Shown: in pieces, positions 9,887-62,775 of the stretch | Numbering within the stretch: the stretch's first letter is position 1 | How the letters are laid out: each line of letters starts with the position of its first letter | Assembly: GCA_024104275.1 (NCBI GenBank) | Contig: JAGGHK010000003.1 | Span: 124,001-188,000 of the forward strand | DNA length: 64,000 bases | DNA from: Bifidobacterium sp. | Lineage (GTDB): Bacteria > Actinomycetota > Actinomycetes > Actinomycetales > Bifidobacteriaceae | Direction: 5' to 3' | Notes under the pieces: generated by a model | What the model was told of the DNA's origin: nothing | What the model saw: only the letters and a program-made list of their open reading frames with translations | Database searches by the model: none | Program-made: the position numbers and the translations under genes

Positions 9887-10600
9887 TCAGTGACGGGAAC
9901 GACGAATCAACGCACCCGGCTGGTAGATGATGATGGAACGGCCTTCGCGCGCGATCCAGCCGCGGTTGGCGAAATCCATCAGCGCTTTGTTGACCGTCTC
10001 GCGGGAGGAACCCACGAGCTGGGCTATCTCCTCTTGCGTCAGGTCATGCGGCACCTTGACACCCGACTCCACCGGTTCTCCGAAACGGGAGGCCAGATCA
10101 AGCAGCGTCTTGGCCAGGCGTGCGGGAACATCCATGAAAACGAGGTCGGAGATCTGCTCGTTGTTGGCGCGCATACGGTTGGCCATCACCTGCAGCATGT
10201 CCACGGCAACCCTCGGATGCTTGTTGAGCCATGTGAAAAGGGTGTCGTGCTCGAGCCAGCCGACCTGTGTGCCGTTGTTCATCGCGATCGCGGAAGCCGT
10301 GCGTGGGCCGCCCGCCGGGTCGAAGACCGGGATCTCGCCCAGAATCTCACCCCGGGTATGGATGCTCAAAAGCTGTATGCGGTTGTCGTTCGCCTCTCTG
10401 GTGAGCTTGACTTTCCCGCTTTCCAGCAGATACATACGCTGGTCGGTGGAACCCTCATGAAAGATGTAGTCACCCTTCTCGAATTCGGCACGCTTCATGT
10501 AAGGCATGAGCTCCTCCGCATCCGCGTGGGAGACATGCTTGAACAATGCCGTCTGCAGAAGTTCATTGTCGGCTTCACCTGCCCCGTTCGGACTAGCCAC
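9887..10600 (-). CDS. Crp/Fnr-family regulator (GlxR/Crp-like)
   Basis: Predicted cyclic-nucleotide-binding DNA-binding regulator. It has an N-terminal cNMP domain with GEILGEIPVFDPAGGPRTAS (phosphate-binding cassette) and a C-terminal helix-turn-helix, LTQEEIAQLVGSSRETVNKAL. I place the start at the GTG at 10598-10600, which has a strong GGAGG 9 nt upstream; an ATG at 10627 would put this site inside the gene. The resulting 237 residues are close to the usual length for actinobacterial Crp/GlxR proteins. The gene stands alone, between the penicillin-binding protein and lipoate ligase genes. Whether it binds cAMP is inferred from the family. Confidence 0.9.
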   Translation of the reverse strand: MASPNGAGEADNELLQTALFKHVSHADAEELMPYMKRAEFEKGDYIFHEGSTDQRMYLLESGKVKLTREANDNRIQLLSIHTRGEILGEIPVFDPAGGPRTASAIAMNNGTQVGWLEHDTLFTWLNKHPRVAVDMLQVMANRMRANNEQISDLVFMDVPARLAKTLLDLASRFGEPVESGVKVPHDLTQEEIAQLVGSSRETVNKALMDFANRGWIAREGRSIIIYQPGALIRRSRH

Positions 10601-12915: not shown

Positions 12916-13959
12916 TTACAGCCGCGCGAGAATATCCCGTCCGACCTCGGCCGTGGTGCGCTGTTTCTTCGCGTTTTCGGCGATGTCGTCCTCTACGACC
13001 TTCTCGATGCGAGCGGCCGGCTCATCCATGCCAAGGTGACGCAGCAGCATCGCGGTGGAAAGGATGGTGGCGGTCGGGTTGGCGATGCCCTTGCCCGCGA
13101 TATCGGGCGCGGAGCCGTGGATCGGCTCGAACATCGAGGGATATTCGTTGCTGGCGTTGATGCAGCCGGACGCGGAATAGCCGACGCCGCCCACCACGGC
13201 ACCCGCCTCGTCGGTGATGATGTCGCCGAAGAGGTTGTCGGTCAGGATCACGTCGAAACGGCTCGGGTCGGTGACCATGAAGATGGTGGTCGCGTCGATG
13301 TGCAGATAATCGTGGCTGACCTCGGGGTATTCCTCGCCCACCTTGTCGACGATGCGCTGCCACATGTCGCCGGCGTTGACCAGCACGTTCTTCTTGTGCA
13401 CCAGCGTGATGTGCTTCCTGCGCTTCATGGCCAGGTCGTAGGCGTAGCGCACCACGCGCTCGACGCCGTAGGCCGTGTTGGTGGAGACCTCGGTGGCCAC
13501 CTCCTGAGGGGTGCCCTTGCGGATCGCGCCGCCGACGCCGCAATACATGCCTTCGGTGCCCTCACGCACGACGACGAAATCGATGTCGCCCGGGTTCTTC
13601 AACGGCGATTCGACGCCCTTGTAAAGCTTGGAAGGGCGGAGGTTCACGTACTGATCGAGATCGAAACGCAGCTTCAAGAGCAGGCCACGCTCAAGCAAAC
13701 CGGCTGGTACGTCGAGCCGGGGGTCGCCGATGGCCCCCAACAGAATGGCGTCGGTCTTCTTGATACGCTCGAGATCCTCGTCGGGCAGCACCGCCCCATC
13801 ACGCACATAACGCTGGGATCCAAGATCGAATTCGTCGTATTCGAAGTCGGCCACACCTTGCGTCGCCTTTTCCATGACCGCTTGGGCCGGTGGGATGATT
13901 TCCTTGCCGATGCCGTCACCGGGGATGACCGCGATATGATATGTCTTTTCAGTGCTCAT
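12916..13959 (-). CDS. leuB: 3-isopropylmalate dehydrogenase
   Basis: Oxidatively decarboxylates 3-isopropylmalate in leucine biosynthesis. The protein begins [20 protein letters not shown], the canonical nucleotide-fold start. It has [29 protein letters not shown] for substrate binding, and the metal-binding [13 protein letters not shown] region. I chose the ATG at 13957-13959 because the family N-terminus begins there; the 44 extra in-frame codons upstream do not resemble the family. The length is 347 residues. There is no clear Shine-Dalgarno. No other leu gene is adjacent. Two 62-bp-spaced palindromes lie 94 and 156 bp upstream. Confidence 0.94.
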
Positions 13960-14052
13960 AGCCGTGACGATAGTCCCGAATTCGGCACTGTCCACTATTT
14001 GGTCCGGAAAATGGACACCCTTCCCGTCTCTATTCATACATTTACAGCCTTG

Positions 14053-14127
14053 TTGGCGCGCCAAGTGCCCCATTTTTGCAACAATTACCACTAAATTTCA
14101 TTATTTTGGGCAACTTGGCGCGCCAAG
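14053..14127. repeat. Palindromic repeat locus A: two TTGGCGCGCCAA sites 62 bp apart
   Basis: The perfect 12-bp palindrome TTGGCGCGCCAA occurs at 14053-14064 and 14115-14126; the second copy extends to 14 bp with flanking C and G. The centres are 62 bp apart. The DNA between them is AT-rich and also shows dyad character (GCCCC near one end, GGGC near the other). It lies between the S9 peptidase 3' end and the leuB 5' end. The same motif and spacing recur at about 50.95 kb and 61.3-61.5 kb. Confidence 0.9.
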
Positions 14128-14209: not shown

Positions 14210-17023
14210 TCAGCGGTCAATTCCCATCGCGTTGAGGCACCAGGCGTTTTCGTCGCTGACTTCCTGCCACTGCTTATAGCGGCCGGAAGTGCCTCCATGG
14301 CCGGCCTCGACCTCGATGCGGACGATGGCGTCCACGCCCTGCGATTGCAGACGGGCGATCCATTTGAGCGGTTCCACATAAAGCACGCGGGTATCGTTCA
14401 ATGACGTAGTGGCGAAAATCTTCGGATATCGCCAGGTGGCGTTCGGGCTATGTCGAACCGGTCGGTTCTCAGAATCGTCCGAGCCGCTATCCGCAGACGG
14501 CGCAACGGTTGCAAAATCAGCATCACGAATCACACCCGTTTTCATCACACTTGCATCACCGGAATACTCACGGCACGTTTCCCTCTTGCTCTTGGCATCT
14601 GCACCGCTTTCATCTTCTGCCGCAGCATCACCCTGCCAAGGTCCGAACGGCGCGTTTTCGTAAGGCGAGTATGACTTCATATAGTCGTAAACAGTCTTGT
14701 CGTGGAGCGGGTCGCCCCACTCGTCCCATTCGGTGACCGTCAGCGGCAACGACGGGTCGAGGATCGAAGTCAACGCGTCCACAAACGGCACATCGGCCTC
14801 GATGCCTGCGTAACATTCCGGAGCCATATTGGCCACGGCGCCCATCAAGAGCCCACCTGCGGAACCGCCGTTGGCAACGGTGCGTTTCGGGTCGGCAAGT
14901 CCGGCCTGCTGCAAGGCTGCTGTGGCATCCACGAAATCCATAAACGTATTACGTTTGTTAAGCCTTCGTCCCTGCTCGTACCAAGCCCGGCCCATCTCAC
15001 CGCCGCCGCGCACATGCACCACGGCATAGAGCACACCACGGTCGAGCATGCTCACGCGGGCCACGGAAAAACCGGGGTCGCTGTTGGATTCGTAGGCTCC
15101 GTAACCGGTGATGAACATCGGGCTGCCGGCACAAGGAAATCCATCATTGCCTTGTTGCGCAACGTTACCCGAAGTCGAGGCTGCCGCACCAGCAATCACA
15201 CCTGCACCGGTTGCGTCGCTGTTCGTAACGCGGTTCTGACCCGATCCATCGTTATCGGCCAAAACAGAATTATCTGACCTCGATCGGGGTATGGAATCAT
15301 CGGCGACATCCAGCAAATCGATACCGCTCAAATCGTCACCCAACGCCGCCATGGCCTTGCAACGATCGGGCCGCCAGACCAGCGAAACCGGCACCAGCTC
15401 GCCGTCGCGCACCCGCACCCAGACACGCCGTTCGCGGTAATTCGAGGCATCATAACCGCCACGAACTTTGGCGCGCTTGAGCAGTCCGCTTTCGCCGGTC
15501 GCCACGTCAAGCTCCCGCAGCTGGCCAGGTTGCGTATAGCTCGAAAACGAATAACGCATGCGCGGCACGTCGTAGGAAGGATTGCCGCCCGCCGCAATGG
15601 AGTACAGATGTTCGCCGCCGTTTTCCGCGTCCGGTTGCAGCTCGCGGAAGCGCCACGGACGGTGCGCCAGAAAGTCCTCCAACGCCTCATCTTTGGTCAT
15701 TACGGCGATGTGCGGCAGGCTGTCTTTGCGATAGCTCAGCACGACGAAGTTGCGATACATCGCGATGCCTTCGATACCCAACCCGCGAGCACCCTGCAAT
15801 ATCGGCGGGTTCACGATATTCCAATAAGGGGTGTTCACAGGCTTGCCGGAAGCCCCTGCCCCCACGAGGTCGCCGCGTTCGCAACCATACGGCGAGCCTT
15901 GGGCGACGATCACCCCTTCACCGAGTCGGTATGGGGGCTCATGCAACTTGAGATCGAGCACATCCACTTCGAAATTGGGGTTTCTTGCGTTGTGATAGAC
16001 CAAAGCCACCGGAACATCGCCACCGCCGACGCCACCGCCTTCGAACCGCGCGAAGCTCACGTCGTATTCGACGCCTTCCTGCCGCGGGATGAAGGCCCGG
16101 AACTCGCCTTCAGGATTGTCGATCGAAAGCATCAGCACCTCGCTGGTGGTCTTGGACGAGCAGCCGATGACCATATTGCGCTCGTCGAAGCTCAGCCCGA
16201 CACCGACCCAGAACCGTTCGTCGCTTTCCCGGAACACTTCCACGTCGTCATCGACACTCGTGCCGACCTGGTGCCGGCGGACCGCATACGGCCGCCACGA
16301 TTGGTCGAGCAAGGTATAGAACACCCACTTGCCGTCGGGCGTGAAACAGGCCTCCGCGATCCCCTTGAACACTTCGGGCAGTTCGTGACCGTCCTCAAGG
16401 CTGCGGATGCGGTAATCGTAACGTTCACTGCCGGCCGTATCGACACCGTAAAGCAGCCAGCGACCATCACGGGTCAGATCGAGCCCGCCCAAGCGGAAGA
16501 AATCGTGGCCTTTCGCCTCCACGTTCGGATCGAAAACGACCTGCTCCCCCGGCATTGAGCCCGGTGCGTCGCTCGCCTTGACTTGCGGTGGATCCCAGTC
16601 ATCCGGCCCGGCAATCGGCAGACGGCACTGCACGCCGTATTGCAGACCTTCCTGAGTCCGCACGAAATACCAATAATCATCCATTCGTGTCGGCACGGAC
16701 ATATCCGTCTCGTCGACACGCGATTTGAGTTCCTCGAAAAGCTTGTGCTTGAGCCCGTCGAAACCCGCCGTCTTCGCCTGGTAATAGTTGTTTTCCTCGT
16801 GAACATAGCGCTGCAATTCCGGCGAATTCTTGTCGCGCATCCACTCGTAAGGGTCGATGAACGTATCGCCGTGCACCGTGCGCACGTGCGGCTCACATTT
16901 TGCGTACGGAATGGGCAAAGCCTGCGAAGTAGGCGGAGTATCAGCGGATGGGACATCATCGGCTTGCGTCGACGGTGCCGTAGCGTTCGTTTCGTCTGTC
17001 ATAAACATCAAGCCTATACTCAT
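14210..17023 (-). CDS. S9 family oligopeptidase (protease II / oligopeptidase B type)
   Basis: Predicted cytoplasmic serine peptidase that cuts short peptides. An N-terminal beta-propeller region (PYEWMRDKNSPEL, a family hallmark) precedes an alpha/beta-hydrolase domain. The catalytic triad is visible: Ser in NGGSAGG (about 719), Asp in LNDTRV (about 877) and His in EAGHGG (about 909). At up to 937 residues it is longer than the roughly 700-residue norm. The excess is mainly two Ser/Asp/Ala-rich inserts near residues 585-645 and 795-855, which look like disordered loops. Start codons at 17023, 17008 and 17002 are all possible and none has a strong ribosome site. Confidence 0.9.
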   Translation of the reverse strand: MSIGLMFMTDETNATAPSTQADDVPSADTPPTSQALPIPYAKCEPHVRTVHGDTFIDPYEWMRDKNSPELQRYVHEENNYYQAKTAGFDGLKHKLFEELKSRVDETDMSVPTRMDDYWYFVRTQEGLQYGVQCRLPIAGPDDWDPPQVKASDAPGSMPGEQVVFDPNVEAKGHDFFRLGGLDLTRDGRWLLYGVDTAGSERYDYRIRSLEDGHELPEVFKGIAEACFTPDGKWVFYTLLDQSWRPYAVRRHQVGTSVDDDVEVFRESDERFWVGVGLSFDERNMVIGCSSKTTSEVLMLSIDNPEGEFRAFIPRQEGVEYDVSFARFEGGGVGGGDVPVALVYHNARNPNFEVDVLDLKLHEPPYRLGEGVIVAQGSPYGCERGDLVGAGASGKPVNTPYWNIVNPPILQGARGLGIEGIAMYRNFVVLSYRKDSLPHIAVMTKDEALEDFLAHRPWRFRELQPDAENGGEHLYSIAAGGNPSYDVPRMRYSFSSYTQPGQLRELDVATGESGLLKRAKVRGGYDASNYRERRVWVRVRDGELVPVSLVWRPDRCKAMAALGDDLSGIDLLDVADDSIPRSRSDNSVLADNDGSGQNRVTNSDATGAGVIAGAAASTSGNVAQQGNDGFPCAGSPMFITGYGAYESNSDPGFSVARVSMLDRGVLYAVVHVRGGGEMGRAWYEQGRRLNKRNTFMDFVDATAALQQAGLADPKRTVANGGSAGGLLMGAVANMAPECYAGIEADVPFVDALTSILDPSLPLTVTEWDEWGDPLHDKTVYDYMKSYSPYENAPFGPWQGDAAAEDESGADAKSKRETCREYSGDASVMKTGVIRDADFATVAPSADSGSDDSENRPVRHSPNATWRYPKIFATTSLNDTRVLYVEPLKWIARLQSQGVDAIVRIEVEAGHGGTSGRYKQWQEVSDENAWCLNAMGIDR

Positions 17024-50414: not shown

Positions 50415-50642
50415 TCAGCCAAAGATCCAGAGAGTCAGCTTGCCGAGACCGAAATCCATACCCGAAACAAGTGCCATCAGAATGACCACGAAAAGAAACA
50501 CGGCAACCGACCAACCGGCCAGTTCCTTGGCACTCGGCGTGACGACCTTACGCAATTCGTCGATAACCTGCTTGATGAACAAGCCGATACGCATAAAAAT
50601 GTTCGGCTTGACGCTCTCTTCAGACTCGTGTGCCTTCGCCAT
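50415..50642 (-). CDS. secE: Preprotein translocase subunit SecE
   Basis: Clamps the SecY channel. The 75-residue protein has the short actinobacterial form: a cytoplasmic amphipathic helix (FIKQVIDELRKVVTPSAKEL) followed by one membrane helix (AVFLFVVILMALVSGMDFG). AAGGA precedes the ATG. It lies 30 nt downstream of the tRNA-Trp 3' end and before nusG, the conserved order. Confidence 0.95.
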   Translation of the reverse strand: MAKAHESEESVKPNIFMRIGLFIKQVIDELRKVVTPSAKELAGWSVAVFLFVVILMALVSGMDFGLGKLTLWIFG

Positions 50643-50671: not shown

Positions 50672-50747
50672 TGGCAGGGAAGGCGGGACTCGAACCCACA
50701 ACCTACGGTTTTGGAGACCGTTGCGCTACCAATTGCGCCACTTCCCT
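50672..50747 (-). tRNA. trnW: tRNA-Trp (anticodon CCA)
   Basis: The minus strand folds into a full cloverleaf of 76 nt. The acceptor AGGGAAG pairs with CTTCCCT, the anticodon loop CTCCAAA has CCA at 50714-50712, the T-arm contains GGTTCGAGTCC, and CCA is encoded at the 3' end. A tRNA-Trp before secE is a common actinobacterial arrangement. Confidence 0.97.
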
Positions 50748-50950: not shown

Positions 50951-51026
50951 CTTGGCGCACCAAGTGACTCAAAAATAGAAGAATCACCACCAATTCCCAC
51001 AAAAACAAACCACTCGGCGCACCAAG
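50951..51026. repeat. Palindromic repeat locus B: two sites 62 bp apart
   Basis: CTTGGCGCACCAAG (50951-50964) and CTCGGCGCACCAAG (51013-51026) are one- and two-base variants of the palindrome seen at 14.05 kb and 61.3 kb, again exactly 62 bp apart. Between them the DNA begins GACTCAAAAATAGAAGAAT, like the units at 61.3 kb. The locus lies in the 422-nt gap between aspC (3' end) and tRNA-Trp (5' end), which holds no gene. Confidence 0.85.
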
Positions 51027-51169: not shown

Positions 51170-52375
51170 TCAGCCGACCCATTCCTTGAAGCGGCGCATG
51201 CCCTCTGCCAGGTCGTCGTCGGCGAGCGCGTACGAGAAACGCAGGAAGCCAGGGGCGCCGAAGCCCTCTCCGGGAACGGCCGCGACGTGGGCTTCCTCGA
51301 GCAGGAGCTCGGCCAGTTCGGAGGAAGTCTTGGCAACTGTTCCGTTTTTGCCGAGCGGACGGTTCAGCAGCGCGGTGACATCGGGAAGAGCATAGAACGC
51401 TCCTTTGGGCGTGCGGCAGGTGACGCCATTGACGGCGTTGAGACCGGCGACGATGGCCTTGCGACGCTTGTCGAACGCCTTGCGCATCATCGCCACTGCA
51501 TCAAGTGAGCCAGAGACAGCCGTGAATGCCGCTTGCTGACAAACGTCGGCGACGTTGGAGGTCATATGGCCTTGCAGTTTGGCAGCGGCCTTGGCGACCG
51601 GAACGGAACCAATCAGCCAGCCGACACGCCAGCCGGTCATCGCGTAGGTCTTGGCCACGCCGTTCATGACGATGAGTTGGTCGCGGACTTCCGGCACCAC
51701 CGCGCCGATATACGCGGTTTTCTCGCCGTCATAGGTCAAGTGTTCGTAAATTTCATCGCTCAGGACCCAGACGTGATGCTCAACGGCCCACTCGCCTATG
51801 GCGCGCACCGTCTCTTCGCTCCACACCGCGCCGGTAGGGTTGGAGGGCGTGTTGACGAAAATGGCTTTGGTACGCGGCGTGCGCACGGCTTCAAGCGCCT
51901 CGACGGTGGGCTCGAAACCGTTCTCTGCGCCGCTGAAAACCGTGACGGGTTTGCCGCCGGCCAACTTTACAGCCTCGGGATACGTCGTCCAATACGGGGC
52001 CGGAATGATAACCTCGTCTCCGGGATTAATCAGAATCTGCAGGGCCTCGTAGACGGCCTGTTTGCCGCCGTTGGTCACCACGACCTGATCGGGCGAAATC
52101 TCGTAACCGGAATCGCGTAGCGTCTTTTCGGCAACGGCCTTGCGAAGCTGCGGCAGGCCAGGGGTCGGGGTGTATCGATGGTTCTTCGGGTCGTGGCACG
52201 CAGCGGCAGCCGCGTCAATGATATAATCGGGGGTCGGGAAATTAGGCTCGCCGGCACCGAAACCGATGACGTCGATACCACTGGCTTTCATCGCCTTCGC
52301 CTTGGAATCCACGGCCAGCGTGGCACTCGGAGCCACACAATTGATACGGTCACTCAACGTCCGCCACTCTGCCAT
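51170..52375 (-). CDS. aspC: Aspartate aminotransferase family (PLP class I)
   Basis: Transfers the amino group between aspartate and 2-oxoglutarate (predicted substrate). The 401-residue protein has [41 protein letters not shown] and the PLP-lysine motif [15 protein letters not shown], all typical of the subgroup Ib aspartate/prephenate aminotransferases. GGGAG precedes the ATG. It follows proB on the same strand after 267 nt, an actinobacterial arrangement. Confidence 0.92.
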
Positions 52376-57971: not shown

Positions 57972-60900
57972 TCAGTCCTTATCGGCCGAGGGCTCAGAAG
58001 ATGAATCCGAATCGGACGCCTCTTCCTTTTCCTCGTCGTTGGCCGCCACCGCAGCCGCGGCAATCTGCGCCAACTTGGCCTTGACCGCAGGGCTGGAACC
58101 CTTCGGCGCCTGCACCTCAGGAGCGCTGCCGTGGCCGTGCTTGTTGGTGTGGACGAACGGATCGCCGCCCTTCATCGCGTAGGGATCGGCGTAATCGGCG
58201 GAGATCGTGGGTTCGTCGTGGAGAATGAAGCCGCGGCCCTTGCAGGTCGGGCATTCCTCGGAGAACGCTTCCACCAGGCCCTGACCGATGCGCTTGCGGG
58301 TCATCTGCACGAGACCCAGCGAGGTGACCTCGGCCACTTGGTGCTTGGTGCGGTCGCGCGCGAGGCATTCGACCAGGCGCCGCAGCACAAGGTCACGGTT
58401 GGCGGGCATCACCATGTCGACGTAATCGATCATGATCATGCCGCCGATGTCGCGCAGACGCAGCTGGCGGGCAATCTCTTCGCTCGCCTCGAGGTTGCAA
58501 CGGGTGACCGTCTCCTCGAGCGACTTGCCCTTGCCGATGAACCGGCCGGTGTTGACGTCGATGGTGGTCATGGCCTCGGTGCGGTCGATGACGATCGAGC
58601 CGCCGCTGGGCAAATAGACCTGACGTTCCATGCCCTTGCGCAGCTGGGAATCGATCTGCCAACTATCGAAGACGTCCTTGCCCTGATGCTCCTCCGGGTC
58701 CCACTTTTCGAGGCGGTCCTTCAAGTCGGGAGCCATGGTGTCGAGGTATTCCTCGATGCGCTCGTAGACCTTGTCGCCCTCGACGATGAGCTTGGAGAAG
58801 TCGTCGTTGAAGATGTCGCGCACCACGCGGATGGCGACGTCGGGCTCGCCCTGCAGAAGCTTTGCCCGCTTGCCGTTGTGATACAGCTTGCGCTTGTCCT
58901 CGATCTTGCTCCACTGACGCTTGAGGTTTTCGAGGTCCTTCTTCAGCGCATCCTCGCTGGCGCCGTCGGCTGCCGTGCGGATGATGACGCCCATATCCTT
59001 CGGGGCGATCTTGGAGACGATGGACTTGAGCCTGCCGCGTTCGCGCTCGGACAGCTTACGGCTGACGCCGGTCATGCCGCCGGAGGGGACGAGTACGAGG
59101 AAACGACCCGCGAGCGTCACCTGCGAGGTCAGACGGGCACCCTTGTGGCCGATCGGATCCTTGGTGACCTGCACCAGCACCGGATCGCCGGACTTGAACG
59201 CGAGTTCGATGCGGCGCGGCTGGCCTTCGAGGCGCGTGGCGTCCCAGTTGACTTCGCCGGCGTAAAGCACGCCGTTGCGCGGCTGGCCGATGTCGACGAA
59301 CGCGGCCTCCATGCTGGGCAGCACGTTCTGCACGCGGCCCAGGTAGATGTTGCCGACGGTGGCGACCTCCTGAATGTCGGAAACATAATGCTCGACGAGC
59401 ACGTTGTCTTCGATCACGGAAATCTGGGTATGCTGGCCTTTTTCGCGCACGACCATCAGGCGGTCGACGTTCTCGCGACGGGCAAGGAAATCCTGCTCGA
59501 TCAGTTGGTTCTGGCGGCTGCGTTCGCGGCGATTGTCGCGACGGCGCTGTTTCTTGGCCTCGAGACGCGTGGAGCCCTCGATGTCGGTGATTTCGTCGAT
59601 ATACTGCTGCTTGCGCGAGCGACGCGAAGTGGAACGGGACGAGTCACGGCCACTATCGTTTTCATCACCCTTGGAACCGCGATGACGGCGACGGCGACGG
59701 GTCAGCGGCTGATCGTCGTTGTCCTCGTCGGATTCACGCCTGCGACGCCGACGGGTTTCGCTACGACTTTCCTCATCGCGCTCGTTACGATCGCTGCCGC
59801 TCTTGCGTCTGCTGCGAGAACCGCGCTCTTCGCCTTCATCCTCGAGCTCGTCATCGGCTTGCTCGGCACGCGAGGAACCGCGGCTGCCACGAGTACGACG
59901 TGACGTCCGCTCGCTCGACGAACGTTCGCTACCACGCCCTCGGCGTGTCCGCGTTCCGGATTGTTCGGCTTCCACGTCATCAATGGGACGATAGGTGATG
60001 TCGTCGTCTTCAAGGTCTTCTTCGATCTGTTCGATCTCATCGGCCGCATGGCGTTCTTCGGCGTTGAGCCTGCGGCGGCGATGGCCGCGACGCTCGGTGC
60101 GTTCAGCCGCTTCCTCATCATAAATATCATCGTCGCTTGAACGACGTGAGCGACGGGCCACACGAGAGGAGTTTTCGTTGTCATCCTCGTAATCGCGGTC
60201 GCGGTCATTGCCCCTGCCACGTCTAGAACCTGACCTGCCTCGGCGCTCGTCCTGCTCTTCGTCCAACCGGTCATCGTCGCGTTCGGAACCTCGACGCGAA
60301 CGGCTGCCACGCGCGGAACGACGCGATTCATTTTCCTCGCCCTCGTCGCCTTCGGCCGCACGGGAACGGGAACGTCGCCGAGTCGGCTTAGGCACTTCGC
60401 CCTCATCATCTGCGCCCTCACCCGGAAGCACAGGTTCCTGGAACAGCAACGACGTCATCGGACGCGGAGTGTGATGGCTTTCGTGGCCTTTGGGAAGGCC
60501 TTCAACAGCATCGATAACGCGCTCCTCGGCGGTTTCGATATTGGATTCCACCTTGGCTTCACTCGCGGATACAGAATCGGCAGACCTGCTGCGGGACCTT
60601 GCGGAGCTGGTACGGCGGCTGCGGCTTGCAGCAGAGGATTCGTTCGCGTCTTCGTCGGATTTGGCGCTTCTTACGCTCCGGCGACGCGTTTGGGGCTCGT
60701 CATCTGAGCCTTCGTCACTGCGAACACGGCTACGCGTACGAGTTCTCCTTGTCGTGCTGGATGAGGAAGCACCAGAACCACGCGAGGAGGAAGAAGTTGC
60801 TCTGCTGCTTCTCGTACCTTCGGCTTTTGAATCCGCGCCGGCTCCGCTTTCGTCGGATTTTTCTTCATTTCTCGCGGATTTGGCGCTTTCGCGCTCCTCG

Positions 60901-61073
60901 ACTTTCAACGCGACGTCGGCACCGGCGGCACCAGCACCACGCACTACACGACGACGAACGGTACGGCGGCGTGTGGCAGGTTCGTTATCCGAAGATGATG
61001 AAGAAGGTAAATTAGTATCGTTTTGTTTGGCGTCGTCGACTTGACCGACCCCGCCTCGGGTTACTCTGGGCAC
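57972..61073 (-). CDS. rne: Ribonuclease E/G with long charged N-terminal region
   Basis: Endoribonuclease that processes and degrades RNA. The first about 520 residues are low complexity and rich in Arg, Ser, Glu and Asp (RRxRR and EDED runs), probably disordered and interaction-prone, as in other actinobacterial RNase E. The S1 domain follows (IYLGRVQNVLPSMEAAFVDIG), then the RNase H/DNase I-like core with TIDVNTGRFIGKG and MIMIDYVDM (metal-binding Asp) and the CPTCKGRG zinc link. The start is uncertain: the GTG at 61073 has AGGAG 4 nt upstream, and an ATG at 61091 and a GTG at 61133 are in frame. Confidence 0.92.
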   Translation of the reverse strand: MPRVTRGGVGQVDDAKQNDTNLPSSSSSDNEPATRRRTVRRRVVRGAGAAGADVALKVEERESAKSARNEEKSDESGAGADSKAEGTRSSRATSSSSRGSGASSSSTTRRTRTRSRVRSDEGSDDEPQTRRRSVRSAKSDEDANESSAASRSRRTSSARSRSRSADSVSASEAKVESNIETAEERVIDAVEGLPKGHESHHTPRPMTSLLFQEPVLPGEGADDEGEVPKPTRRRSRSRAAEGDEGEENESRRSARGSRSRRGSERDDDRLDEEQDERRGRSGSRRGRGNDRDRDYEDDNENSSRVARRSRRSSDDDIYDEEAAERTERRGHRRRRLNAEERHAADEIEQIEEDLEDDDITYRPIDDVEAEQSGTRTRRGRGSERSSSERTSRRTRGSRGSSRAEQADDELEDEGEERGSRSRRKSGSDRNERDEESRSETRRRRRRESDEDNDDQPLTRRRRRHRGSKGDENDSGRDSSRSTSRRSRKQQYIDEITDIEGSTRLEAKKQRRRDNRRERSRQNQLIEQDFLARRENVDRLMVVREKGQHTQISVIEDNVLVEHYVSDIQEVATVGNIYLGRVQNVLPSMEAAFVDIGQPRNGVLYAGEVNWDATRLEGQPRRIELAFKSGDPVLVQVTKDPIGHKGARLTSQVTLAGRFLVLVPSGGMTGVSRKLSERERGRLKSIVSKIAPKDMGVIIRTAADGASEDALKKDLENLKRQWSKIEDKRKLYHNGKRAKLLQGEPDVAIRVVRDIFNDDFSKLIVEGDKVYERIEEYLDTMAPDLKDRLEKWDPEEHQGKDVFDSWQIDSQLRKGMERQVYLPSGGSIVIDRTEAMTTIDVNTGRFIGKGKSLEETVTRCNLEASEEIARQLRLRDIGGMIMIDYVDMVMPANRDLVLRRLVECLARDRTKHQVAEVTSLGLVQMTRKRIGQGLVEAFSEECPTCKGRGFILHDEPTISADYADPYAMKGGDPFVHTNKHGHGSAPEVQAPKGSSPAVKAKLAQIAAAAVAANDEEKEEASDSDSSSEPSADKD

Positions 61074-61327
61074 AATGCTCCTCGTCGACATGCTGCAATC
61101 ATGTCGACTTATCTGGCCGTCTACGGCTCTCACACCGCGCTCTCACCGCGGCCACGCAACACTTGCGCTCGTAGCCGGCAATCTAAAAGTCTACGTTCGT
61201 CACGGCGGACACCGACACTCGCGGATTAGCACACGAAGGGATCAACGCCATCGGAATTTGGCAACTTGCAGAATCACCATGTTTTATTATACGTCAACGT
61301 ATGCAAAAAAGAAGCCAAACCGACGTT

Positions 61328-61527
61328 CTTGGCGCACCAAGAAACCCAAAAATTGAAGAATGGGCATTATTTCTTTAAATTTTGAGGGTCTTGGCGCGCC
61401 AAGAAAGCCCAAAAACGAAGAATGTGGGCCATATCTTCAAATTTCGGGGAACTTGGCGCGCCAACATACCCAAAAAATGAAGAATTGATGCCCGTTTTCT
61501 TATTTTCGAGCATCTTGGCGCGCCAAC
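61328..61527. repeat. Palindromic repeat locus C: four sites at strict 62-bp spacing
   Basis: CTTGGCGC(A/G)CCAA(G/C) occurs at 61328, 61390, 61452 and 61514, each 62 bp apart. The spacers share a CCCAAAAA-x-GAAGAAT start and a TTTTCGxGG-like end but differ in the middle. The locus fills most of the 511-nt gap between dapE and rne, which holds no gene. Loci A (14.05 kb) and B (50.95 kb) have the same motif and spacing. Confidence 0.95.
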
Positions 61528-61584: not shown

Positions 61585-62775
61585 CTATGAGAGCCAATTT
61601 TCAAGGATGTCGGCAAGCAAAGTGAGTTGGCTTTCGGGAATTTGTTCGTCGGCTTTGTGCGCCAAAAGCGGGGAACCCGCGCCGAGATTGACGGCGGGGA
61701 CGCCGATGGACGAAAAGCGGGCGACATCGGTCCAGCCGAGCTTGGCCTGAGGTTTCAACCCGGTTTTCTCCTCGACCAACTTGGCCAAGGAAACCGCAAG
61801 CGGAGCATCCATACCAGGGCGAGCTGAAGGCGATTCGTCCTTCATCTCGATATCGAAGCCCTCGAACATGCCGCCGCTGGCCTTGTGCTCGCCGTTGCCC
61901 ATTTCGGCACCGGCGTCGGCACCCATCATCAAGGCTTTGGCGGCAGGCAGATCCTTGTCCGGCGCAAAACGATAGTTGATGTGGATGCGGCATTCGTCGG
62001 GGATGACGTTGGTGCCCTTGCCGCCGGAAATGAGGGTGGCATTGACGCCTTCGCGGTAGGTCAGGCCGTCCACCTCAATATCCTGCGGAACGTAGGCGGC
62101 AAGCCGATCGAGGACCGGCGCGGCCTTATGAATGGCGTTTTCACCCATCCAGGCGCGGGCGGAATGGGCGGCGACACCGTGGGTGACGACGTCGAAACGC
62201 ATCGTGCCGTTGCAGCCGCCTTCGATGCCGCAATCGGTCGGCTCGCCGATGATGGCGAAATCGCCCTGTATCCAATCGGGATGGGCCTTCGCCACCTTGC
62301 CGAGGCCGTTCTTTTCGGCCACGACCTCCTCGTGGTCGTAGAAAACGTAGGTAAGGTCGTATTTCGGGTTCGTCATCGTCGCTGCAAGATAGAACATCAC
62401 GGCGTCGCTGGCCTTCATATCGGTCGCGCCCCTGCCAAACATCACGCGCTCGTTTGGGTCCGCCTTCACCGCCACGTCATCGCGGATACGCTCGTCGCCC
62501 GGCTCAAGCCAGACCGGGGGGAAATTGTCGATAACCGGAACCGTGTCAAGGTGACCGGCGAGCACAACCCGCTGCGCGCGCCTGAGCAAGGTCGAAGCGA
62601 CCACCGTGTCGCCCATGCGATGCACCGTCAGATGCGGCTGGTCACGCAGAAACGCCTCCACGTCATCGGCGAGCGCCGTCTCGTCGTCGGAGACGGAATA
62701 CGACTTCATCAATGTTTCGAATAATTCGTTTAGCGCGGCCTTGCGCGTGGTTCCCTGCTCGATAGTCAAACTCAT
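61585..62775 (-). CDS. dapE: Succinyl-diaminopimelate desuccinylase
   Basis: Releases LL-diaminopimelate in lysine and peptidoglycan-precursor synthesis. The 396-residue protein is an M20 metallopeptidase relative: LAGHLDTVPV (zinc His/Asp), RGATDMKASDAVM, VFYDHEEVVAEKNG (catalytic Glu) and EPTDCGIEGGCNG. AGGA lies 7 nt before the ATG at 62775. It is monocistronic. The assignment over other M20 enzymes rests on overall similarity to actinobacterial DapE. Confidence 0.92.
   Translation of the reverse strand: MSLTIEQGTTRKAALNELFETLMKSYSVSDDETALADDVEAFLRDQPHLTVHRMGDTVVASTLLRRAQRVVLAGHLDTVPVIDNFPPVWLEPGDERIRDDVAVKADPNERVMFGRGATDMKASDAVMFYLAATMTNPKYDLTYVFYDHEEVVAEKNGLGKVAKAHPDWIQGDFAIIGEPTDCGIEGGCNGTMRFDVVTHGVAAHSARAWMGENAIHKAAPVLDRLAAYVPQDIEVDGLTYREGVNATLISGGKGTNVIPDECRIHINYRFAPDKDLPAAKALMMGADAGAEMGNGEHKASGGMFEGFDIEMKDESPSARPGMDAPLAVSLAKLVEEKTGLKPQAKLGWTDVARFSSIGVPAVNLGAGSPLLAHKADEQIPESQLTLLADILENWLS

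Follow-up and report, generated by a model that had tools for sequence, protein, structure and literature searches.

Several kinds of repeated or periodic DNA signal in bacterial chromosomes are relevant here. The sites of Noc and SlmA are palindromic in form and sparse near the terminus. The macrodomain sites of the matS/MatP system are also palindromic, occur singly, and mark a chromosome region at the terminus. DNA-gyrase wrap sites and phased A-tract signals present AT-rich minor grooves every ∼10.3–10.5 bp, an arrangement suited to wrapping. Extragenic palindromes of another kind are the REP sequences, which are defined (PMC2817692) by a GT(A/G)G head beside a palindrome, and the BIMEs, some of which bind gyrase and IHF.

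Here we analyze arrays of a palindrome repeated at a 62-bp period, found in a 64-kb stretch of Bifidobacterium DNA (hereafter, the window). Like BIME/REP elements and their RAYT genes (PMC2817692), the arrays consist of extragenic palindromes in regularly spaced clusters, scattered in the chromosomes of one clade, and they include a nuclease-type gene with repeats on both sides. In contrast to BIME/REP, they have one exact period and two-fold symmetric units, with no alternating REP orientations, and the bracketed gene is unlike an IS200-type tyrosine transposase, showing instead a weak likeness to MTES_1575/DUF559. No conserved tetranucleotide corresponding to the GT(A/G)G head is present in the unit profiles of the 62-bp arrays, and no match to an IS200/IS605-like tyrosine transposase was found for the bracketed gene or among 45 of the 46 array-flanking proteins of the window's genome. 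Because the head is absent and no tyrosine transposase occurs among the flanking genes examined, we consider these arrays a variant of extragenic palindromic arrays, not REPs.

The arrays recall the Noc and SlmA sites in being a few dozen palindromic sites for a (here putative) protein scattered over the chromosome, and they share the sparseness around the terminus in three, non-independent, chromosomes. Unlike those sites, they are tandem, with a fixed period and phased AT blocks, and are restricted to a few species of the genus. They resemble matS as palindromic sites marking a chromosome region, but are distributed oppositely (outside the terminus) and form arrays instead of single sites. 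Gyrase wrap sites and A-tract signals differ from them in that each unit here has a strict palindromic core and the period between units is exact. A search of open PMC, judged mainly on titles and the beginnings of abstracts, returned no description of such arrays.

Results

Three arrays in the window

The initial annotation reported eight palindromes in three loci of the window, separated without exception by 62 bp, and on both counts it was correct: 12-mers start at 14053 and 14115; at 50952 and 51014; and at 61329, 61391, 61453 and 61515, with all five neighbour distances equal to 62 bp. The 14-mer that it named is less general, with exact copies at just 14115 and 61391. Five of the eight palindromes match the 12-mer TTGGCGCGCCAA exactly; the variant TTGGCGCACCAA occupies 50952 and 61329, and TCGGCGCACCAA is found at 51014.

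Array 1 (14053..14126; like the others, without strand) has two units, 14053–14064 and 14115–14126, with centres 62 bp apart. It lies between leuB, encoding 3-isopropylmalate dehydrogenase (12916..13995, minus strand; NCBIfam NF002898, above cut-off), and a gene for a prolyl oligopeptidase of the oligopeptidase B type (14210..16885, minus strand; below the curated cut-off). Array 2 (50952..51025) also has two units 62 bp apart, 50952–50963 (TTGGCGCACCAA) and 51014–51025 (TCGGCGCACCAA). On one side are secE (50415..50642, minus strand; TIGR00964, above cut-off) and, between secE and the array, a tRNA gene identified by Rfam search (50675–50747); on the other is a gene for a PLP-dependent aspartate-type aminotransferase (51170..52336, minus strand; below curated cut-offs). 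Array 3 (61329..61526), with four units and three 62-bp steps, separates the gene of an RNase E/G family ribonuclease (57972..60551, minus strand; its start is uncertain and the open frame extends to 61133) from dapE, encoding succinyl-diaminopimelate desuccinylase (61585..62775, minus strand; TIGR01900, above cut-off). One full 62-bp unit, for example 61366..61427, has the palindromic core at its centre, and its AT blocks lie some 16 and 25.5 bp to either side of the dyad. Considering just the window, the core is mildly overrepresented, with 12 matches at up to two mismatches versus a shuffle mean of 5.7; one of 100 shuffles reached 12. Window matches at 10164, 10758, 25811 and 61654, and all those with three mismatches, are omitted from the array counts.

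A separate feature of this region is the 5′ leader of the RNase E gene (61030–61275, minus strand), which is ∼250 nt long and highly conserved (mean column identity 85% in an alignment of nine species). At least one compensatory change occurs in 13 of its 72 predicted pairs, and with a covariation term of −2.8 this signal is modest. The leader has no Rfam match even at E 1 and is possibly an autoregulatory RNA.

Abundance and exact period of the core

The window belongs to a genome of 2.16 Mb in 19 contigs (G000). Allowing up to one mismatch, the core pattern gave 81 forward matches in this genome versus 17 for the reversed control pattern, and the core-pair pattern gave 22 versus 0. Genome-wide, the core is far more abundant than expected by chance. 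Among the matches listed, TTGGCGCRCCAA occurs exactly at 55 distinct places, all in 23 arrays of two to four units and none isolated; counted from these matches, the array total is at least 23. In one array (L026, G000:C12:107400–112400) the middle unit is unreadable because of a run of N.

For the six-genome comparison we used 88 arrays: 23 from G000, 23 from G054, 22 from G140, 14 from G139, 1 from G138 and, in all sequence counts, 5 of the 15 from G029. Neighbour distances within 60–63 bp are exactly 62 bp in 156 of 171 cases; nine further distances, of 66–129 bp, involve weak, distant or missing units. Arrays have two to five sites, five being rare, and 32 of the 45 arrays in G054 and G140 have three. 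The initial annotation had pointed to random genome-wide distances and to free copies inside genes as observations that would speak against its reading. Neither was seen: the distances are not random, and the 55 exact places among the matches listed all lie in arrays.

A symmetric unit with helically phased AT blocks

Profiles were built from 63 units of G000 and from 153 exact-62-bp spacers of the six genomes. The unit is 62 bp long and two-fold symmetric, with the core TCTTGGYGCRCCAAGA flanked on either side by four-base A/T tracts at ∼16 bp and by A-W-T at ∼25.5 bp. Along the unit, the AT fraction alternates between ∼1.0 and 0.0–0.4, forming six blocks (62/6 = 10.33 bp). In the 153 spacers it is at least 0.94 at 4.5–5.5, 7.5, 14.5–17.5, 24.5–26.5, 35.5–37.5, 44.5–47.5, 54.5 and 56.5–57.5 bp from the palindrome centre. 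AT power at 10–10.33 bp is ∼1.5 in the spacers, compared to 0.23 after shuffling and 0.37 in 400 flanking intergenic pieces. The view that the spacers share only short edge motifs is therefore wrong, as helically phased AT blocks are common to them; the proposal that the sites lie about six turns apart is supported by the ∼10.3-bp phasing of these blocks.

In the 153 spacers, the four-base tracts commonly contain both A and T, as does the middle position of the three-base tracts, and the four-base tracts accept AAAA as well as TTTT. In the same spacers, there is no total excess of compensatory base-pair changes across either dyad, and total complementarity is below the shuffled expectation at both the core dyad (z −2.7) and the spacer dyad (z −5.7). 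Tolerance of A–T exchange and the lack of pairing between the sides speak against RNA hairpins and in favour of DNA shape being recognized on one face. A symmetric protein that reads major-groove half-sites together with AT-rich minor grooves on one face would leave such a constraint. The deficit in complementarity may also reflect avoidance of long perfect palindromes.

One column pair of the core, Y/R at ±1.5, does co-vary when the genomes are pooled (z 5.2). This reflects lineages, because the two halves vary independently inside G054 and G140. The core reads CGCG in G000 and TGCA in G139 and G029 and is mixed in G054 and G140, a shift that amounts to two symmetric CpG transitions. CG/CG accounts for 47 of 60 in G000 and TG/CA for 50 of 52 in G139 and G029, while in G054 and G140 the half-site combinations number 52, 47, 25 and 16, indicative of independent variation. 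Given this independence, we make no claim of co-evolution between core and binder; the lineage difference might stem from methylation-driven mutation or from a shift of the putative binder.

Spacing is conserved while sequence drifts

In orthologous arrays, the unit/spacer length was kept in 113 of 120 comparisons, and the gap between array and neighbouring gene in only 19 of 125. Spacing is thus under selection while the letters drift, as the initial annotation had suspected. Within the spacers, 9.9% of cells differ in the AT-block columns, and A–T swaps account for 127 of the 157 changes (81%); elsewhere in these spacers, in the free columns, 30% of cells differ and A–T swaps account for 100 of 1085 changes (9%). 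These rates come from orthologous pairs with at least 62% spacer identity, and the comparisons share species and hence are not independent events, but the two kinds of column are contrasted inside the same spacers.

At least one orthologous flanking protein (60–100% identity) is common to an array in another species for 84 of the 88 arrays. In G000, G140 and G054, median spacer likeness (of 62) is 39–40 within arrays and 37–38 between arrays. Between-array spacers are no more alike than independent draws, the exceptions being the gene-bracketing arrays described below and one 48/62 pair each in G000 and G140. Because spacers of different arrays resemble independent draws, there is no sign of recent spread. 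Some neighbouring spacers are near-identical, with up to 62 (G029), 59 (G139) and 57 (G054) of 62 positions alike, which shows that units can duplicate.

Arrays are intergenic and sparse around the terminus

Gene calls that we made from codon usage place the 62-bp runs of each of the 88 fetched arrays between genes; the three orthologous loci L177, L203 and L207 each have an extra core-like site, 129 bp away, on or in a gene. The placement of the loci between minus-strand genes, proposed initially, is accurate for the window and does not extend to the wider set, in which 67 of the 88 arrays have tandem, 14 divergent and 7 convergent neighbours. Tandem arrays follow the upstream stop codon by a median of 72 bp and precede the downstream start codon by a median of 136 bp, and given the latter distance they may have a role in transcription. 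Neighbours in G000 are diverse and include leuA, leuB, leuD/murA, hisD/dnaE, metK, trmD, tig, purA, radA and dapE/RNase E, among others. No shared regulon was evident among 45 of the 46 flanking proteins of G000 (40 searched against NCBIfam and 10 against Pfam, five of them overlapping). A CRISPR array was also considered and rejected, as the spacers share a phased profile and descent and these 45 proteins include no cas gene product.

We mapped array positions on the three single-contig chromosomes, G054, G139 and G029; the contigs of G000 (19) and G140 (7) are unordered, and these genomes were left out. The terminal third of the chromosome contains 1 of 23 arrays in G054, 1 of 14 in G139 and 1 of 15 in G029. 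The largest array-free arcs span 734 of 2388 kb, 901 of 2416 kb and 882 of 2251 kb, respectively, and are centred 47, 182 and 105 kb from the antipode of dnaA. For the array-free gap alone, P values are 0.007, 0.032 and 0.014, although the three chromosomes are not independent, because arrays are shared by descent. Gene content, too, differs near the terminus. For a control, we located promoter-like sites in G054, and 45 of the 100 listed (of 115), counted manually, fell inside the array-free stretch. As the reversed control gave 67, this control mostly measures AT-rich DNA; it shows that AT-rich sites are not missing from the terminus stretch, and nothing more.

Arrays occur in a few closely related species

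We scanned 112 genomes of the genus with the unit profile, counting both strands and taking at most 48 candidates per genome under stricter filters. There were 68–100 matches in each of G000, G139, G029, G054 and G140, nine in G138, four in G002, and one marginal match each in G103 and G144; the other 103 genomes had no profile match. Five of 112 congeners carry arrays in number, and two have relics.

By DapE identity, carriers and non-carriers fall in one tight group of 11 genomes (91–100%), with G053, G025 and G034 at 84–87%. G057 and G048, whose DapE is ∼94% identical, are without arrays, and because such close species live without them, the function of the arrays is dispensable in the group. 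A ten-gene tree rejects the five carriers as a single clade (AU P = 3.7e-5), the tree itself being poorly resolved, with bootstrap values of 44–78 on the deciding branches and 6 of 14 rows having under half the columns. Gaps at orthologous sites are shorter in array-less species. For example, the spacer between the ACT-domain and PRK05313 genes is 254–255 bp with the array (G000, G054) versus 18–20 bp in G057, G002 and G138. Three histories would account for this distribution: a single gain followed by several clean losses, more than one gain, or exchange between species.

Outside the genus, 38 genomes of the same order gave no match to the core-pair pattern. In a collection of 84,980 genomes searched for the strict core pair, none of the 111 stretches listed had good cores 59–65 bp apart; near misses were pairs at 57 bp in two stretches and at 67 bp in one. 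Twelve viral-contig stretches contained no arrays. Separately, TTGGCGCGCCAA is found with TTGGCGC at one constant distance, in 78-bp matches, in many unrelated genomes from Clostridia and others (e.g. L058, L070, L076 and L087); these matches have the look of a conserved gene and not of an array.

A nuclease-like gene bracketed by array units

A gene adjoining dapB, with a product of 340–348 aa, is enclosed by two arrays in G054 and in G140. Orthologs in G139 and G029 (55% identity) have good core units on both sides, with a single unit on one side (loci L275–L278 for the four genomes). In these two genomes the reported stop ends a 325-codon open frame counted from ATG, and from this reading of the frame we take the gene to be intact. 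Orthologs (≥55% identity) are thus present in four of the five carriers, while the other 107 of the 112 genomes have none and nothing above 37% identity at E ≤ 1e-20. Because the gene was found through its position between two arrays, this co-occurrence is a post hoc test. Six relatives that are array-less at this place (G004, G138, G015, G002, G053 and G025) have neither gene nor arrays, and a transporter-like gene, judged by eye and presumably MFS, precedes dapB. G057, G048, G034 and G000 have other open frames there; the one upstream of dapB in G000 (L284, contig C12) we take, also by eye, to encode a HipA-type protein. The two bracketing arrays of G140 are 52/62 alike, versus a maximum of 47 for simulated independent spacers.

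The protein scores below the Pfam gathering thresholds for MTES_1575/DUF559 (24.1 versus 38.2 bits, and 15.5 versus 20.6), families that we take to be PD-(D/E)XK-like. An alignment of eight sequences shows an invariant D208 and E219-Y-x-G, in the form E-Y-D/Q-G, and the AlphaFold2 model is confident only over residues ∼160–300. A PDB sequence search, PADLOC and NCBIfam returned nothing for it. We inspected 24 paralog loci of the family; a palindrome pair is nearby in just two, each time a single GC-rich pair that looks like chance, and is absent from the other 22. The paralog neighbourhoods thus lack comparable arrays and give no support to a link between gene and array across the family.

A second family with a 53-bp period

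Seven small-genome congeners carry arrays of CTCCAAA-N20-TTTGGAG (e.g. loci L327–L346 and L046–L048), in which all 24 neighbour steps of 50–56 bp are 53 bp. Matches number 13 in G113, 36 in G046, 16 in G044, 6 in G031, 12 in G022, 12 in G148 and 11 in G060, with none in each control. The pattern matches 12 of the 112 genomes in all, and G138, G048, G015, G025 and G057 have a single A-rich site each. These loci were drawn from the matches themselves, and the 20-bp inner gap is set by the search pattern. In the 23 loci examined, no clearly coding frame extends across the arrays (best score 5.1; gene-call threshold 12). A step of 53 bp corresponds to five turns at 10.6 bp, and AT-richer blocks lie about one turn apart (near 0, ±11.5 and ±20.5), more loosely than in the 62-bp family. 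Dyad complementarity is again below expectation (695 versus 791, sd 12). The two families differ in core and spacing, and no genome has both in number.

Discussion

We favour, with a probability of about 0.55, the view that the arrays are cooperative docking strips for a putative symmetric protein that bends or wraps DNA, with a natural history like that of REP/BIME elements. On this view, an array would offer a row of docking sites, two to four and rarely five in number, to a DNA-binding protein with two-fold symmetry. A dimer would read TTGGYG on each half of the palindrome and would touch, or bend DNA toward, the minor groove at the AT blocks of each turn, as far as the limits of the 62 bp that it occupies. 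With a unit of exactly six turns, neighbouring dimers would sit on the same face and abut in one curved or wrapped nucleoprotein complex. Such arrays may have originated in one species group as a repeat-element family with a REP/BIME-like layout, with selection now keeping them as binding strips in the carriers. Placed between transcription units, the complexes could serve as insulators or fixed nodes and would mark the chromosome away from the terminus region. The initial annotation offered two readings: that a protein binds several sites together, or that the palindromes are a family of repeat elements. The first fits the selection on spacing, the six-turn phasing and a signal at the DNA level, from which we infer the dimeric binder, the bending or wrapping, the cooperativity and the chromosomal function; a nucleoid, partition or regulatory role stays likewise conjectural. 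The second fits as well, given the patchiness among close species and the single lineage-specific gene that is bracketed. A structural or insulating role is favoured over a regulon by the housekeeping genes nearby, the inheritance of array positions and the sparseness around the terminus, and an element-like origin by the patchy distribution and the bracketed gene. As with BIMEs, these two views are compatible. It is also conceivable, on a more tentative footing, that the arrays are a bacterial nucleosome-like signal in which the core sets the register and phased AT blocks wrap DNA, with one protein unit per whole number of turns. Such a signal would have arisen on two or more occasions within a single genus, each time with its own core and turn number (six for 62 bp, five for 53 bp), and would form nodes outside the terminus.

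A selfish origin is possible, though we consider it doubtful. The arrays would then be REP/BIME-like elements, the nuclease-like gene their autonomous copy and the remaining arrays non-autonomous derivatives spread or maintained by it, with host function secondary or absent. Wherever the gene occurs it is indeed bracketed by core units, its distribution covers four of five carriers and none of 107 other genomes, and the G140 bracketing arrays are more alike (52/62) than any simulated pair (47). The rejection of a single carrier clade (AU P = 3.7e-5) and the presence or absence of an array in the ACT-domain/PRK05313 spacer (254–255 versus 18–20 bp) point the same way. However, G000 keeps 23 arrays without the gene (its assembly is 94.85% complete), 22 of 24 paralog loci are without a nearby palindrome pair, array positions are old and common to several species, the spacers give no sign of recent spread, and geometry and AT blocks are conserved. 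Duplication of units, seen in the near-identical neighbouring spacers of G029, G139 and G054, brings up ordinary tandem duplication or an assembly artefact without function. In its simple form this is excluded, as arrays occur in three single-contig genomes, spacers within an array of G000, G140 or G054 are typically as different as those between arrays, and length and AT blocks are conserved between species.

Operators for a transcription factor that regulates the adjacent genes would explain the position of the 67 tandem arrays (medians of 72 bp after the preceding stop and 136 bp before the next start) and the several amino-acid biosynthesis neighbours (leuA, leuB, leuD, hisD, dapE and metK). 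This explanation is improbable in view of the 7 of 88 arrays between convergent genes, the unrelated remaining neighbours (trmD, murA, dnaE, purA, radA and RNase E), the arrays on the 3′ side of dapE, metK, leuD and the aminotransferase gene, and the same genes standing without arrays in close species. Still less can be said for an element acting in RNA, such as a terminator, processing hairpin or small RNA, which we regard as very improbable. A short hairpin can be drawn from the core and the Y/R pair at ±1.5 co-varies (z 5.2), albeit in a lineage-driven manner, but neither dyad has a total excess of complementary pairs, A–T exchange is tolerated with the partner unchanged, 14 of 88 arrays lie between divergent genes, and Rfam identifies only tRNA in the window and nothing at six array loci.

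If a protein does read these docking strips, they would constitute a natural ruler whose core, period and AT-block phase can each be altered independently in vitro; such a ruler would bear on the means by which a bacterial protein counts turns of the helix and assembles a curved complex. The five-turn family suggests that spacing palindromes by whole turns is a recurrent solution. The patchy presence of arrays beside the same neighbour genes amounts to a natural deletion experiment, bearing on insulation, chromosome folding and the spread of elements.
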